Below are positions 366-5,987 of a stretch of 5,987 nucleotides of DNA, in pieces (the stretch's first letter is position 1; every line of letters begins with the position of its first letter). The DNA lies in NCBI GenBank assembly GCA_003499585.1, contig DNSU01000080.1, forward strand, positions 3,253-9,239, in the 5' to 3' direction. A program made the translations under genes and the position numbers. Below the pieces are notes generated by a model. It saw nothing but the letters and a program-made list of their open reading frames with translations. It was not told where the DNA came from and made no database searches. The DNA is from Cyanobacteria bacterium UBA9579 (GTDB lineage Bacteria > Cyanobacteriota > Vampirovibrionia > Gastranaerophilales > UBA9579).

Positions 366-1937
366 ATGAGAGTTTTACCTCAGGAACTAATGTGGAAAGC
401 GAGAACAGGCAAAGGTTATATTGATTATCTAAAGCAAATAGGCACAGAATTTGCTATGGGACAAATTTTAAACCTCATAGGCACTTCCAGTAAAAAGAAT
501 TTAATAACTCTAACAAAGTTATTTGAAAAAATAGCAGGCTCTGAAGGGTCTGTAAGGCATGCGCGCAGAATGAGATGGTTGTTTGAAACCGATCATGCCC
601 ATCTGCACTGGTGGCAAAAAATAATTAGTGAACTTGATCCGAATTGCAGAAATAAGTTTCTGGTTAACTTCTTTGTCCATGGATACTATGCTGATAACCA
701 GAGAAAACGTGCAAAATTCCATGAAAAAAATGGATTTTATCCACCAACAGTACTCCTGTCCAGCATAACCCAGAAATGCAATTTTAATTGTGCAGGGTGC
801 TGGGCTCATAACTATGAAGTAAAAGAAGATTTATCTTTTGAAGAATGGAAAAAAGTATTTGATGAAGCAAGAGATGAACTTGGTGTACACATAATGCCAA
901 TCGTTGGCGGTGAACCGTTTGCTCGCAAAGACTTTTTGGATTTAGTCGAGCTTTATCCTGATTGCATTTTCATTGTGTTTACAAACGGGTCATTATTAAC
1001 CGATGAAACTATTGCAAGAATTAAAAAATTAGGCAACGTTGCTCCTATGTTCAGCCTGGGAGGATGGGAAAAAGCCACTGATGGAATCAGAGGCGAAGGA
1101 ACATTCCAAATGGTAATGGAAAAAATGGATAAGCTTAAAAAAGAAGGTATATTCTTTGGAATTAGCTTAACCGCAACAAAAGAAAATGCACAAGAAGTTG
1201 TATCAGATGAATATATGAAAATGCTATCTGATAAAGGCAGCTTATGGACATGGGTATTCCACTATGTCCCTGTAGGTGAAAACCCTGATGCAACATTAAT
1301 GCCAACAGCAGAACAAAGAGAGATGATTAAGCAGGCTGTTTATAATGCAAGAAATACTCTGCCAATGATGACTGTCGATTTTTGGGGTGACGGCCCGGAA
1401 ATGATGGGTTGTATCGCTGGTGGCAGACAATATATTCACGTAAACGCTAAGGGTGACGTTGAACCTTGCACATTTGTGCACTTAGCTACACATAATATTA
1501 AAAATTCATCATTAACAGAAGCACTTGAAAGTCCATTTATGAAAGCAGTCAGAAAAGGTGCTCCATACGATGGAAATATGCTGAGACCTTGTATGATTGT
1601 AGACAGACCATGGGTTCTTAGAGGATATCATAAGAAATTTAAACCGTATGAAACCCATAGAGGTGCAGCAGATTATCTCACTAAACCTGAAGTAATGAAA
1701 GAAATAGATAAATATGCAGAATCTGTTGCTAAAGTTATGGATGAAAACTGGGAAAAAGATTATTATATGACTTTATTCCCACTACCTGGAGAATATTATC
1801 ACGATAGAAAAATCTTATGCAGCAGTAAATTACCTATAAATGGAGTTCACGGCGGTTGTGAAGCAAACGGTGGGTGTAGCTGCGGAAAAGATTTATCTGC
1901 TATAGAACAATTATCTAAAGAACTGACGAATGTATAG
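366..1937 (+). CDS. Radical SAM protein with SPASM-like region and Cys-rich C-terminus
   Basis: This is a cytoplasmic radical SAM enzyme of 523 residues. The SAM-cluster motif CxxxCxxC is C138, C142 and C145, in the context CNFNCAGCWA. The SAM-binding GGEP motif is at 181-184. C349, the GDVEPC motif (C368) and C409 form a SPASM-like auxiliary-cluster region. A Cys-rich tail carries C485, C498, C504 and C506 and could hold a further cluster. About 125 residues precede the radical SAM core. They look helical and include a His/Trp-rich patch, HAHLHWW (77-83). No signal peptide or membrane segment is seen. AAGGAG at 352-357 sits 8 bases before the ATG and supports this start. The gene leads the operon, and the ferredoxin 25 bases downstream is a plausible electron donor. 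The reaction and substrate cannot be told from the sequence. The family call is firm and the function is unknown. Confidence 0.9.
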   Translation: MRVLPQELMWKARTGKGYIDYLKQIGTEFAMGQILNLIGTSSKKNLITLTKLFEKIAGSEGSVRHARRMRWLFETDHAHLHWWQKIISELDPNCRNKFLVNFFVHGYYADNQRKRAKFHEKNGFYPPTVLLSSITQKCNFNCAGCWAHNYEVKEDLSFEEWKKVFDEARDELGVHIMPIVGGEPFARKDFLDLVELYPDCIFIVFTNGSLLTDETIARIKKLGNVAPMFSLGGWEKATDGIRGEGTFQMVMEKMDKLKKEGIFFGISLTATKENAQEVVSDEYMKMLSDKGSLWTWVFHYVPVGENPDATLMPTAEQREMIKQAVYNARNTLPMMTVDFWGDGPEMMGCIAGGRQYIHVNAKGDVEPCTFVHLATHNIKNSSLTEALESPFMKAVRKGAPYDGNMLRPCMIVDRPWVLRGYHKKFKPYETHRGAADYLTKPEVMKEIDKYAESVAKVMDENWEKDYYMTLFPLPGEYYHDRKILCSSKLPINGVHGGCEANGGCSCGKDLSAIEQLSKELTNV

Positions 1938-1962
1938 TTTCTCTAAGGAGTAAAAATAAATT

Positions 1963-2169
1963 ATGCCAAGACAAATCAATATAGAAAATTGTACACAATG
2001 TGGGGCATGCCTTCCAGCTTGCCCTGTAGATGCAATAGAAACCAGAGATGGAATTATTCAGATTAATCCTGATGAATGTGTAGATTGCCAAACATGCTGG
2101 CGAATTTGCCCGGAAAAGTGCATAGACGGCGGCCCGGATAAATACCTCGAATTAAGGACTGAACAGTAG
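1963..2169 (+). CDS. 2[4Fe-4S] ferredoxin
   Basis: A 68-residue clostridial-type ferredoxin, full length for this family, with two complete CxxCxxCxxxCP motifs: C10, C13, C16, C20 followed by P21, and C39, C42, C45, C49 followed by P50. These bind two low-potential [4Fe-4S] clusters. An extra Cys (C53) lies just after the second motif. The protein is soluble and cytoplasmic. AAGGAG at 1945-1950 precedes the ATG by 12 bases, a slightly long spacing. Its stop codon lies 3 bases before the next start. From context, it most likely supplies electrons to the radical SAM enzyme, to the three dehydratase-like proteins downstream, or to both. In the 2-hydroxyacyl-CoA dehydratase family, ferredoxin is the known donor to the activating ATPase. 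Confidence 0.95.
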   Translation: MPRQINIENCTQCGACLPACPVDAIETRDGIIQINPDECVDCQTCWRICPEKCIDGGPDKYLELRTEQ

Positions 2170-2172
2170 ATC

Positions 2173-3318
2173 ATGAGCTTAGAGCTAAAAGAAAAAAAGG
2201 CAAATAATAAAAAAGAAAGAATTATTTCCTTTCCCCGCATGGGACATCTTAGTATTCCTGTTAGTGCAATGCTAAGATCCATGGGGGCAAATGTTCTATT
2301 AGCTCCAAGCAACAATACTGAGACCCTTAACTATGGGACAAGACATAGTTATGAAACAGTCTGCTTGCCTTATAAACTTAATCTTGGCAATTATATTCAG
2401 GCTCTTGATGCTGGCGCCAATGTATTACTAATGTTTAATGCTCCAGGCACATGCAGACTGGGAAATTATGCACGTATGGCCGAAGCAACTCTCATAGATC
2501 TAGGCTATGATTTTGAAATGGTAATTTTTGACATGTACAAGGGCAAGCTAGTTGAAATTTCCAGAAAATTCGCTCAGGCCATGGGCAAAAAGGTGAGTTT
2601 TACTAAGATACTTTATGGCATTCGTTTAGGTTTTGCTAAATTCGATGCTCTTGACGTTATAGAGAGAAAATTATTCTATACCAGACCAAGAGAAATTAAG
2701 CCCGGTGCGGCTGAAATAATTTATAAAGCAGGAATTCGGGCAATAGATAGCGCAACGACTATTCAGGAAGTAAAAGATATAGTTGATATAACTATAGAAA
2801 AATATGATTCTATACCAATAGATAACAACAAAGATGTTTTAAAAGTTTACCTAACAGGCGAATTTTTTGTTTTGCTAGATCAGTTTACAAACATGGAGAT
2901 AGAAAAAGAACTCGGATTGCTCGGAGTTGAAGTAGAAAGACAAATTATGCTTTCGGACTGGACAAATGGCGTACTACTCCCAAAATGGATACATAAAAGA
3001 GAATCTCACAGGGAACGAGCTTTCAGAGTTGCCAATAATTATATAAAAAGAGCTATCGGTGGAGAATGTATGGAATCCATAGGAGATACTGTTTATGCAG
3101 CACAGGCAAACATTGACGGAGTGGTTCATATCGGTCCGTTTAACTGCAACCCTGAAATAGTAAGCCAGTGTATTCTTCCTCACGTTAGCAGAAAAGAAAA
3201 TATACCTGTTATTTCCTTAGTAATAGATGAACATCAGGGAAAAGCAGGTTTTGTTACCAGGTTAGAAGCATTTGTTGATTTAATGTACAGACGTAAAAGA
3301 GCAAAGATTACGGCCTAA
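2173..3318 (+). CDS. Acyl-CoA dehydratase activase-related protein, paralog A (COG3581-like)
   Basis: A 381-residue cytoplasmic protein resembling the non-ATPase [4Fe-4S] subunits or domains linked to 2-hydroxyacyl-CoA dehydratases. Visible motifs are ISFPRMG (18-24), CLPYKL (C64), GTCRLGNY (C94), GPFNCNP (C325) and the C-terminal DEHQGKAGFVTRLEAF (352-367). C64, C94 and C325 have equivalents in both downstream paralogs and are the likely cluster ligands. C299 and C333 are unique to this copy. It carries Asn (N48) where the other two have a Cys in a CKR motif. An N-terminal Lys/Glu-rich extension of about 16 residues is absent from the other copies. The start is fixed because the ferredoxin stop is in frame 6 bases upstream and no other Met precedes the conserved region. 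The nearest Shine-Dalgarno-like site (AAGGA, 2154-2158) is distant, which suggests translational coupling. No ATP-binding motif is seen. The substrate is unknown. Confidence 0.8.
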   Translation: MSLELKEKKANNKKERIISFPRMGHLSIPVSAMLRSMGANVLLAPSNNTETLNYGTRHSYETVCLPYKLNLGNYIQALDAGANVLLMFNAPGTCRLGNYARMAEATLIDLGYDFEMVIFDMYKGKLVEISRKFAQAMGKKVSFTKILYGIRLGFAKFDALDVIERKLFYTRPREIKPGAAEIIYKAGIRAIDSATTIQEVKDIVDITIEKYDSIPIDNNKDVLKVYLTGEFFVLLDQFTNMEIEKELGLLGVEVERQIMLSDWTNGVLLPKWIHKRESHRERAFRVANNYIKRAIGGECMESIGDTVYAAQANIDGVVHIGPFNCNPEIVSQCILPHVSRKENIPVISLVIDEHQGKAGFVTRLEAFVDLMYRRKRAKITA

Positions 3319-3340
3319 AGGCCATAAGGAGGACAATATT

Positions 3341-4411
3341 ATGAAAATAGGCATACCAAGGGCTTTAGGATATTATATATACTATCCTTTCTGGCATGCG
3401 TTCTTCAATGACCTTGGTATTGAAGTTGTCTTATCAGGAAAAACATGTAAAAGAATCGTGTCACAGGGCAGTGCTCTGGTTGTTTCTGAAACATGCCTTC
3501 CCGTAAAGGTATATGTAGGGCACGTTATAGATCTTTTAGACAAAGGAGTAGATGTAATTTATTCTCCAAGCATTCAATCAATAGCTCCAAAAATATATAA
3601 CTGTTCAAAATTACGAGGCCTACCTGATTTAATCAGAAACGTTATCAAAAGAGATTTCCTCTTAATTGAGCCAACTCTGGATAAATCTGCTCCTAAACAG
3701 GGTTTATACGAATATTTGTATGAATCTGTAGCCCCATTAGGAATTACAGATAAAAAAAGAATTAAGCAAGCATCAAAAGCAGGCTGGGAATGCATGAATA
3801 ATTATCATCTTATGACTAAAGCCGGCATGCCTATAGATGTTGCCAGAAAAAATGCCATAGCCGGTAAAGTTGAAATCGTTAATGATCATGATAATTTCCC
3901 TATCAGCGTTGCTGTACTTTCCCATGGATATAACTTGCATGACGACCATGTGAGTATGAAAGTATTTAAGAAACTTGAAAAACTTAAAGTTAAATCTTAC
4001 ACATCAGATAACCTTACAAAAGAAGAGATGTCTGCAGGTGTTAACGTATTAAATACTCAGCTATACTGGGCCAATGAATATGAAATGACCGGAGCTGCAG
4101 GACATTTCTTAAAAGATAATAATATTGACGGTATAGTTACTATAACAGCATTCGGTTGTGGTCCTGATTCTCTTATGGTTGAAAGAATCACACGCTACGC
4201 TAAAAGACTCAAAAAACCGCTTTTAAATCTTACTATTGATGAACACACCGGAGAAGCGGGGTTCATTACAAGATTAGAAGCGTTTACAGATATGCTTTTA
4301 AGAAGAAAACGTACTACTATTGTCGAAGCTCTCAACAAGCAAGTATACCGTGACAATTCAGATATCCAGAGAATACGTGCTGAAATTGAGCGCATGAAAA
4401 TCAATGTCTAA
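3341..4411 (+). CDS. DUF2229-type acyl-CoA dehydratase activase-related protein, paralog B (COG3580-like)
   Basis: A 356-residue protein opening with the characteristic DUF2229 start, KIGIPRALGYYIYYPFW. It then shows CKR (C36), ETCLPVKVYVGH (C52), YNCSKLRGLPDLIRN (C88), FGCGPDS (C273) and DEHTGEAGFITRLEAF (from D300). In clostridial activator proteins this domain is usually fused behind ASKHA ATPase domains and ahead of a dehydratase-like domain; here it stands alone without an ATPase. C52, C88 and C273 correspond to the conserved Cys of the flanking paralogs and probably bind a [4Fe-4S] cluster. C151 is specific to this copy. AAGGAGG at 3326-3332, 8 bases before the ATG, is the strongest ribosome site in the operon, so this product may be made in greatest amount. 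The gap from the previous gene is 22 bases. The exact role is unknown. Confidence 0.82.
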   Translation: MKIGIPRALGYYIYYPFWHAFFNDLGIEVVLSGKTCKRIVSQGSALVVSETCLPVKVYVGHVIDLLDKGVDVIYSPSIQSIAPKIYNCSKLRGLPDLIRNVIKRDFLLIEPTLDKSAPKQGLYEYLYESVAPLGITDKKRIKQASKAGWECMNNYHLMTKAGMPIDVARKNAIAGKVEIVNDHDNFPISVAVLSHGYNLHDDHVSMKVFKKLEKLKVKSYTSDNLTKEEMSAGVNVLNTQLYWANEYEMTGAAGHFLKDNNIDGIVTITAFGCGPDSLMVERITRYAKRLKKPLLNLTIDEHTGEAGFITRLEAFTDMLLRRKRTTIVEALNKQVYRDNSDIQRIRAEIERMKINV

Positions 4412-4454
4412 TTTTAAAATTCATTATACACAGATATATTACTGAGGCACCATT

Positions 4455-5561
4455 ATGAAAATTTCTTTTCCTCATATGGGAAATTTATATATAGCACTTG
4501 GAAGCGCTCTCAAAATCATGGGAGCAGAGGTTATTATACCTCCTTATAACTGTAAGAGAACACTTTCATTAGGAACCAGAAATAGCCCTGAGGCTGTATG
4601 TTTACCGTACAAGCTCGTTCTAGGCAATTATATTGAAGCAATTGAAGCTGGGGCTGAAGGACTTCTCATGATTGACAGCCCTGGGATATGTAGACTCGGC
4701 CAGTATAGCAATTCTTCAAGAACTGCGCTTACAGATATGGGGGCAGATGTAGAATTTATTAATTTTGATCTTTATAAAGGCAAATTAAGAGAGCTTTATA
4801 CCGGATTTAAAAAGGCTACAGGCAACAGTAATCCTATAGATATTATTAAAGCTATTAATGTTGCGCTTATCAAAATTGATATACTTGACCAGCTTGAGCA
4901 TGCACTTGCCTATTATAGAGCCCGAGAAATCCAGATAGGGAGTGCTGACATTCGATACAGAAGAGGAGTAAAAGCAATAGAAGAGGCCATGTCTCCCGCA
5001 AAATGCAAAACAGCATTTAAATATGCCATGGAGCAATTATCATCTATCCCTATAGATAAGGATAAAGATGTAATACATGTAGACTTAACCGGAGAAATTT
5101 ACGTTGTTATTGATTCTTTTTCCAATCTGGAAGTAGAAAAGGAGCTTGGTAAACTTGGTGTGCACGTCCATAGAAAGTTAAACCTCAGTAACTGGACTAA
5201 AACTTTCTTAATTCCTTCTTTTTTACAATTTAGCGAAAGCCACGGGGAAAAAGCTGCAAGGTATGCTCATGATTTCTTAAAAAGGGATATCGGAGGCGAT
5301 GCTATAGAATCAGTGGGTGATACTGCATATGCAAGCTATTCAAAAAGCGACGGGATAGTTCATCTATTGCCATTTACATGCATGCCGGAGATTATCGCAC
5401 AGAATATACTTCCAAATATAAGGATGGAAAGAGATATTCCTGTGTTATCTCTTGTACTGGATGAATATCAAGGCAAGGCAGGATTTGTCACCAGACTGGA
5501 AGCTTTTGTTGATCTTATTAACAGACGTAAAAGAAAACAAGAAAAAGTAAAAATCGCTTAA
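4455..5561 (+). CDS. Acyl-CoA dehydratase activase-related protein, paralog A' (COG3581-like)
   Basis: A 368-residue protein clearly homologous along its whole length to paralog A. Shared blocks are ISFPHMGN (3-10), CLPYKLVLGNY (C49), GICRLGQY (C79), DLYKGKLRE, LTGE, IESVGDTAYAS, PFTCMP (C309) and DEYQGKAGFVTRLEAF (336-351). C49, C79 and C309 match the conserved trio. C33 in a CKR motif matches C36 of paralog B but is missing from paralog A. It differs from both others in having DEY instead of DEH in the C-terminal motif. It lacks the counterparts of C299 and C333 of paralog A (Ala and Asn here) and has its own C184. The start has a modest GAGG site (4444-4447) 7 bases upstream. The 43-base gap before it is the longest in the operon. 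No ATPase motif is present. It may pair with paralog A or B as a heterodimer, as such subunits do in known dehydratases. Confidence 0.8.
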   Translation: MKISFPHMGNLYIALGSALKIMGAEVIIPPYNCKRTLSLGTRNSPEAVCLPYKLVLGNYIEAIEAGAEGLLMIDSPGICRLGQYSNSSRTALTDMGADVEFINFDLYKGKLRELYTGFKKATGNSNPIDIIKAINVALIKIDILDQLEHALAYYRAREIQIGSADIRYRRGVKAIEEAMSPAKCKTAFKYAMEQLSSIPIDKDKDVIHVDLTGEIYVVIDSFSNLEVEKELGKLGVHVHRKLNLSNWTKTFLIPSFLQFSESHGEKAARYAHDFLKRDIGGDAIESVGDTAYASYSKSDGIVHLLPFTCMPEIIAQNILPNIRMERDIPVLSLVLDEYQGKAGFVTRLEAFVDLINRRKRKQEKVKIA

Positions 5562-5627: not shown

Positions 5628-5656
5628 GGTTAAGATTAATATCTTAACCTTTATTC
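5628..5656 (+). terminator. Probable operon terminator between convergent genes
   Basis: GGTTAAGAT (5628-5636) and ATCTTAACC (5641-5649) form a perfect 9-bp stem with a 4-base TAAT loop, followed on the plus strand by TTTATT. The stem is AT-rich (three G-C pairs) and the U-tract is weak, so efficiency may be modest. The hairpin lies 66 bases after the last operon gene and directly beside the stop codon of the convergent gene. It could act on both transcripts, but the minus-strand side has no T-run. Confidence 0.45.
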
Positions 5657-5987
5657 AGCTGCAAAAACCGGCGGAAGTACTATAAGAGCATTTGTCACTC
5701 TGCCGCCGCCTTTTACAGATGGAAAATTAACCAGTCTTCCATTAACTACCATCTGGGTAGAAGTGCCGCCATCAAGGTTCATTGCATTATGACAGCCTAA
5801 TTCCCACATAATTTTAGCCAATTCAGTTAATGTAGCCCCCTCAGAAATTCCTTTTTGCCTTCCATCTATAGTAACCATAACAAGGCTGCCGCCTTTTGTA
5901 TAACCTATAGCGGTTCTGGGAAATTTTGTCCATAAGAAACTGTGTGAAAACTTCTGTTTATCAATAAATATCTTACCGTTTTTTACC
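5651..5987 (-). CDS. Phosphodiester glycosidase family protein (NAGPA/DUF2233), C-terminal part
   Basis: The frame is open from the right window edge to a TAA at 5651-5653, giving 111 visible residues; the N-terminus lies outside. An internal Met at 5876-5878 should not be taken as the start, because typical family motifs lie on both sides of it: PRTAIGY upstream, and TIDGRQ, NLDGGTST (the family's Asp-Gly-Gly active-site region) and GGRVTNAL downstream. The best match is the phosphodiester glycosidase domain named after human N-acetylglucosamine-1-phosphodiester alpha-N-acetylglucosaminidase. Bacterial members are usually exported and are thought to act on cell-surface or wall glycans. A signal peptide would be in the unseen part. 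The gene is convergent with the operon, so it is probably functionally unrelated. Confidence 0.85.
   Translation of the reverse strand, partial: VKNGKIFIDKQKFSHSFLWTKFPRTAIGYTKGGSLVMVTIDGRQKGISEGATLTELAKIMWELGCHNAMNLDGGTSTQMVVNGRLVNFPSVKGGGRVTNALIVLPPVFAAE

Follow-up and report, generated by a model that had tools for sequence, protein, structure and literature searches.

Within a 5,987-nucleotide stretch of contig DNSU01000080.1 from Cyanobacteria bacterium UBA9579 (the window, meaning this whole stretch), five plus-strand open reading frames (ORFs) at 366–5561, separated by gaps of 25, 3, 22, and 43 bases, form one operon encoding a radical SAM enzyme (rSAM), a ferredoxin, and three subunits (G3, G4, and G5) that resemble components of the benzoyl-CoA reductase/2-hydroxyacyl-CoA dehydratase (BCR/HAD) family. 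We propose that a separately encoded BadF/HgdC-type ATPase drives the three subunits, which would act together with rSAM on one lipid or lipid-linked substrate, and we put the probability of this reading at roughly 0.5. The split from the ATPase and membership of the superfamily are well supported, a lipid role is suggested by gene neighbourhoods, and the chemistry, the complex, its activity, and its substrate are predictions. The observations behind this proposal are the gene content, the conservation of the operon, an unlinked ATPase in relatives, conserved cysteines, the co-occurrence of rSAM with G3, and a recurring linkage of rSAM with COG3581-type genes. Lengths in the gene list are in amino acids (aa).

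366..1937, plus strand: radical SAM enzyme (rSAM), 523 aa; Pfam PF04055 (Radical_SAM) and PF13186 (SPASM)
1963..2169, plus strand: 2x[4Fe-4S] ferredoxin, 68 aa; PF00037 and PF12838
2173..3318, plus strand: G3, COG3581-type/HgdB-like subunit, 381 aa; C64, C94, and C325, plus C299
3341..4411, plus strand: G4, DUF2229 subunit, 356 aa; C52, C88, and C273; PF09989 at 166 bits
4455..5561, plus strand: G5, second COG3581-type subunit and paralogue of G3, 368 aa; C49, C79, and C309

The operon and its probable unlinked ATPase

A preliminary description of this DNA had recognised a single operon that is led by a radical SAM gene and contains no ATPase. The ORF coordinates agree with that layout, PF04055 and PF13186 both fall in the first gene, and a Pfam scan matched PF01869 (BadF/BcrA ATPase) in none of the six window proteins. 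G3 and G5 are 50% identical; G3 matches HGD-D and, below the cut-off, part of DUF2229, and the partial DUF2229 match of G5 scores 31.4 bits against a cut-off of 29.4. The Pfam matches were computed separately from the COG3580 and COG3581 labels, which we presume to be the right names for these subunits.

Conservation of the operon and its presumed partners was followed in draws of 192 genomes from the order and 213 genomes from the class of Melainabacteria GWF2_37_15 (G001), to which "order" and "class" refer throughout. A COG3581-type protein was found in 190 of the 192 order genomes (E 1e-20), and 13 genomes of that draw carry a close G5 relative (61–86% identity), all 13 of whose G5 regions were examined. 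The complete operon recurs in the same order in six other genomes (L123, L124, L125, L127, L129, and L130) and is cut by a contig end in a seventh (L126), so the linkage is not unique to one genome, and a chance grouping is disfavoured because the five-gene order recurs. The ferredoxin gene lies between the rSAM gene and G3 in all six complete operons; no ferredoxin was seen in the scanned stretch of L015, a locus of G001. Genes of the VKOR-family and QueH-like types stand upstream of the window-type operon in three genomes (L123 8283–9930; L125 11034–12905; L127 11178–13117), the VKOR-family assignment coming from Pfam, which was run for L123 only, and QueH-like being a name that we take to apply.

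All three subunits carry conserved cysteines. Three are invariant in 63 of 63 aligned COG3581-type proteins (the family of G3 and G5) and three in all 32 DUF2229 proteins that were aligned (the family of G4; 5 of 37 proteins were left out by length), and C299 is an extra cysteine kept in G3's own group. The predicted fold of G3 is that of the 2-hydroxyacyl-CoA dehydratases and benzoyl-CoA reductases (HadB/BzdO-type), the fold of the BCR/HAD family. The spacing of the three cysteines resembles that of Cys95/128/380 in BzdO, as given in excerpts of PMC11971306, which also assign six cysteines to the BzdN double cubane; the three-cysteine sites of G3, G4, and G5 are predicted [4Fe-4S] sites. Structural alignments of G3 with 2-hydroxyacyl-CoA dehydratases (HadBC/HadI, HgdABC) and class I benzoyl-CoA reductases (BzdNOPQ) show 9–14% identity. 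Unlike those systems, the operon has an rSAM partner and a DUF2229 subunit, no CoA-pathway genes were recognised nearby, and the activator ATPase, encoded in the same operon in the BCR/HAD family, is absent from it. The double-cubane protein DCCP and its reductase (6eno, 7yyl, 7yzm) differ in turn, in that G3 has three family-wide invariant cysteines compared to the six given for the BzdN double cubane in those excerpts, and in that the ATPase is unlinked here.

The candidate ATPase belongs to the acyl-CoA-dehydratase-activase family, and NCBIfam names its representative acyl-CoA dehydratase activase. All 16 genomes from which the first loci came gave a PF01869 match above the cut-off. Fourteen of these are Gastranaerophilales-like, and 13 of the 14 have one full-length match (frames of 335–359 aa), the match in G013 being in two pieces and the remaining matches weak and partial. 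In the class draw, 121 of 213 genomes match the ATPase at E 1e-20, 117 at 69–100% identity with one match each and four at no more than 38%; the G4 family is present in 117 of the 213, the same 117 when both lists were compared by reading. Of 20 further order genomes, 15 also have the ATPase. Five of the complete-operon genomes (n=6) are among these 15, and in them it lies on a contig other than the operon's. It had no match in the stretches L123–L140, which include the six complete operons, and no relatives of G3, G4, or G5 were found in 27 order ATPase loci within ~1.3–1.5 kb on each side. Of the two possibilities raised in the preliminary description, a split system with its ATPase elsewhere fits these relatives; operation without any ATPase is not supported.

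A three-gene cassette (DUF2229, COG3581-type, ATPase) that includes relatives of the orphan ATPase occurs in other phyla, in C. ljungdahlii, Tepidanaerobacter (two), Oceanirhabdus, Thermodesulfovibrio, and Brocadiaceae. This cassette, related to acyl-CoA dehydratase activases, shares with our system the same two subunit families, the three invariant cysteines, and an ATPase family with an extra cysteine set; it differs in that its ATPase is adjacent rather than unlinked and in that it has two subunits, compared to three subunits plus rSAM and ferredoxin here. A tree built from 37 of 49 ATPases, the other 12 being excluded for their length, places the orphan genes with the cassette ATPases, and the extra cysteine set is present in 35 of the 37 and absent from two HgdC-like outgroups. 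Because it shares both this grouping and these cysteines, the orphan ATPase is likely to be the partner of the operon subunits. Several reductase modules probably share one ATPase, since as many as three COG3581-type paralogues occur in the order, compared to a single clear ATPase match per genome. Our literature search, thin on subscription journals, turned up no study of what the cassette itself does or of coupling between rSAM and a DUF2229-type reductase.

Two further neighbourhoods concern these families. In three Clostridia-type genomes, DUF2229 genes (L208 3934–4956, L211 11447–12337, and L213 9080–10084) lie a few kb from sporulation-like genes, presumably of the SpoVAD type, a possible link to sporulation. 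The Thermodesulfovibrio cassette (L212 6204–12213) adjoins two ORFs that look ketosynthase-like by eye, a cluster type shared with the Desulfobacterota described below.

Association of rSAM with COG3581-type genes

A radical SAM protein of Candidatus Melainabacteria bacterium RIFOXYA12 shares 92% identity with rSAM, and the 15 best of 80 rSAM genome loci (61–78% identity) come from Melainabacteria, Gastranaerophilales, or other bacterial records. An AlphaFold model (pLDDT 89.4) gives rSAM an N-terminal helical domain of ~120 residues. C138, C142, and C145 of the radical SAM core and C349, C368, and C409 of a SPASM-like part are invariant in 23 aligned sequences. Heme and d1 enzymes of the AhbC/D and NirJ types were rejected as matches (59–91 bits, compared to cut-offs of at least 500).

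Within the class draw, the rSAM gene is present in 32 of the 117 ATPase-carrying order genomes. A search with G3 returned 33 places at 411–541 bits (51–65% identity), the remainder scoring no more than 351 bits (at most 46%). This high-scoring group falls in exactly the 32 rSAM genomes and in none of the 85 others, with G001 having two of each gene. All 32 rSAM genomes have at least two COG3581-type genes, compared to one in 83 and none in two of the 85 others (Fisher 2e-29 for rSAM against COG3581 copy number, uncorrected for shared descent), and a second DUF2229 gene is present in 30 of 32 rSAM genomes and 0 of 85 others. On a poorly resolved tree of 87 ATPases, built from this single short gene with all 32 positives and 55 of the 85 negatives, parsimony requires 17 label changes (shuffled mean 26.1, minimum 20); the rSAM–G3 pair was therefore lost or gained jointly and repeatedly. 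Joint loss partly reflects joint location, because the genes lie in one cluster wherever both were seen, G001 excepted. There, one rSAM copy, a G3–G4 pair, and G5 are on separate contigs, and the second rSAM copy has an adjacent G3-type gene (L015). A further arrangement, in L002, L003, L006, and L007, runs DUF2229, PHP, G3, a second radical SAM, and an SLBB polysaccharide-export-type gene, then radical SAM and PAP2, with a lipid kinase near (Pfam on L007). The PHP protein is CehA/McbA-like and the second radical SAM PTO1314/HpnH-like in L002 (3050–6426) and L007 (4174–7447), both below the cut-off.

Linkage between rSAM and these subunits recurs outside the Melainabacteria. Two of the seven rSAM loci with a COG3581 or DUF2229 gene in view (L018 and L022) are from a phylum that we take to be Desulfobacterota, in which this radical SAM occurs in 75 of 395 genomes (E 1e-80). 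Among 20 of the best-scoring loci, taken one per genome with the query's own left out, nine have radical SAM, COG3581, DUF2229, and ATPase genes in a row (the ATPase is cut in L331), six have radical SAM and COG3581 with no adjoining DUF2229 or ATPase (two of the six stop at a contig end), and five have no COG3581 beside the radical SAM. Four of the six genomes with no adjacent ATPase (G474, G419, G448, and G353) have one elsewhere at 66–69% identity, and the other two have only a fused type (50%) or more distant ATPases. In L338, L340, L342, and L343, another HgdB-like protein (by eye) takes the place of DUF2229 after radical SAM and COG3581.

In a midpoint-rooted tree of 103 rSAM sequences, which four of the six complete-operon loci entered and from which two of the 80 anchors (L013 and L064) were dropped by length, the linked loci fall into two groups: one clade of 19 (support 1.0) contains 10 of them, and another of 20 (0.98) contains 17. 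The linkage of rSAM with COG3581-type genes probably arose twice, because the two groups are separate and their common ancestor spans the whole tree; the alternative is an old linkage that was repeatedly lost.

Lipid-type neighbourhoods and competing explanations

Neighbouring genes in relatives point to the type of substrate. In 11 of the 12 loci L002–L013, a PAP2 gene adjoins the rSAM gene (6–184 bases), and a YegS-type lipid kinase gene lies no more than 830 bases from it in 11 of the 12 (Pfam on L007 and L003). The Desulfobacterota clusters (n=20), which are of a fatty-acid/glycolipid type, contain genes for glycosyltransferases (17), B12-radical SAM proteins (11), LpxL acyltransferases (10), acyl carrier proteins (9), acyltransferases (9), and thioesterases (9). 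These two sets of neighbours make a lipid, or a glycan linked to one, the likeliest substrate.

Several observations weigh against our proposal. No lipid genes were recognised beside the window-type operons themselves, G3 or G4 is in view at just 4 of the 12 lipid-flanked loci L002–L013, and two Desulfobacterota clusters (L347 and L348) keep lipid genes without COG3581. A COG3581 or DUF2229 gene is in view at just 7 of the 80 first rSAM loci and at none of the other 73, so members of the rSAM family do not all require a reductase partner, and G5 occurs without the other operon genes, within the stretch examined, in 6 of the 13 close-G5 genomes. The placement of the ATPase was read from the genomes of relatives, the window's own genome not being among them. 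In 5 of the 20 further order genomes (G031, G035, G037, G043, and G045), including G043 with a full operon, the ATPase was not found, and loss and assembly gap are indistinguishable in these five because they are apparently drafts. The agreement between ATPase and G4, taken alone, says little about coupling, because their presence follows one clade split. Finally, a fold search placed rSAM closest to the peptide-modifying enzymes SkfB and SuiB, not to lipid enzymes; it also returned viperin, MoaA, and PqqE, from which we draw no function.

The ATPase, G3, G4, G5, and ferredoxin might instead be a mere electron source for the core or auxiliary clusters of rSAM, with no substrate of their own. 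The position of the ferredoxin gene between rSAM and G3 and the exceptionless co-occurrence of these two proteins in the class draw suit such a role, as do the many rSAM relatives without the module, which could use a generic reductant. We nevertheless judge it unlikely: the G3, G4, and G5 families keep three invariant cysteines as in a catalytic site, G3 has the fold of a substrate enzyme, the cassette occurs in Clostridia with no rSAM of this kind nearby, and all 85 rSAM-less order genomes have G4, 83 of them with a single COG3581 copy.

Comparably improbable is a split glycerolipid ester reductase that makes plasmalogens or alkyl ethers, with rSAM making another change to the lipid, for example by coupling chains. 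Plasmalogen synthase (PlsA/PlsR) and glycerol ester reductase (Ger) belong to the same superfamily and use the same building blocks (ATPase, DUF2229, and HgdB-like). Excerpts of PMC13274423, PMC8788747, and PMC12838417 describe PlsA and Ger as reducing glycerolipid esters, and those of PMC13274423 mention further PlsA homologues that lack the activation domain and whose role is unclear. The PAP2 and lipid-kinase neighbours are in keeping with such an enzyme, and so is the single ATPase match (E 1e-20) per genome in 117 order genomes, in which no fused PlsA/Ger was therefore seen. The fused relatives, however, are ~1400 aa long and combine ATPase and DUF2229 in a single frame, whereas the subunits here are separate proteins of 356–381 aa with no ATPase in the operon. 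Split and fused types coexist in genomes such as that of C. ljungdahlii and hence probably differ in function, G4 scores 80–119 bits against three fused proteins compared to 107–234 bits against split ones, and no ether-lipid data for this group were among the literature matches listed.

A maturase of ribosomally synthesized and post-translationally modified peptides, with the reductase tailoring the peptide, is a much poorer fit. Among known systems, SkfB/SuiB maturases and the archaeal tetraether synthase Tes (GDGT-MAS) were compared with rSAM, which differs from them in having its own N-terminal helical domain and a SPASM-like part in which just three cysteines are invariant across the 23 aligned sequences. 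The helical domain and the lipid-type neighbours of relatives both speak against a peptide maturase. No precursor-like ORF was found upstream, where frames are of 22–25 aa only, and no peptide recurs in the 400 upstream bases when the window is compared with six relatives (upstream stretches only). A chance neighbourhood of unrelated anaerobic enzymes, to which the scattered genes of G001 (with the exception of L015) and G5 outside the operon in six genomes might be ascribed, is scarcely credible given the same order in six further genomes, the exceptionless co-occurrence, and the second linkage in another phylum.

We return to a lipid-directed pair of radical enzymes as the preferred reading. 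The ferredoxin, or another, would reduce the ATPase, which we take to be a homodimer like HgdC. ATP hydrolysis by this unlinked ATPase would then put a low-potential electron on the three-cysteine [4Fe-4S] sites of G4/G3 or G4/G5 heterodimers, a transfer that we infer from homology to HadBC and BzdNO and from the invariant cysteines. The reduced site may deoxygenate or reduce the substrate through a ketyl-type radical, and rSAM, which also needs low-potential electrons, may make a second radical modification before or after the reductase step.

Surroundings of the operon and wider meaning

The operon probably lies wholly inside the window, because no ORF of at least 40 aa occurs in the 365 bases upstream and the ORF downstream is convergent. 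That ORF (5651–5986, minus strand), which is cut by the window end, has a phosphodiester glycosidase match (NAGPA, PF09992). No known dehydratase gene stands beside the operon within the window. By eye, an AGGA/GAGG-like purine-rich stretch precedes the start of each of the five genes. The window has no Rfam match at the gathering score and no tRNA, and its counts of promoter-like and terminator-like sequences are at chance level.

A broader and more doubtful extension of our proposal is a two-radical lipid pathway in which rSAM and an ATP-driven BCR/HAD-type reductase would work one after the other on a lipid of the membrane or a lipid-linked glycan. In this extension the pairing would have arisen or been reassembled twice (in Melainabacteria and in Desulfobacterota), and one unlinked ATPase would be the shared electron pump of several modules. 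The co-occurrence of rSAM and G3 offers a concrete pair for reconstitution. If the proposal is true, widespread "CoA activase" homologues that have no activation domain would gain a function, and several modules would be seen to draw on one ATP-driven BCR/HAD-type electron pump that is not reserved for a single operon. Uncultured relatives of the cyanobacteria would then be expected to contain a lipid or glycolipid that is new.

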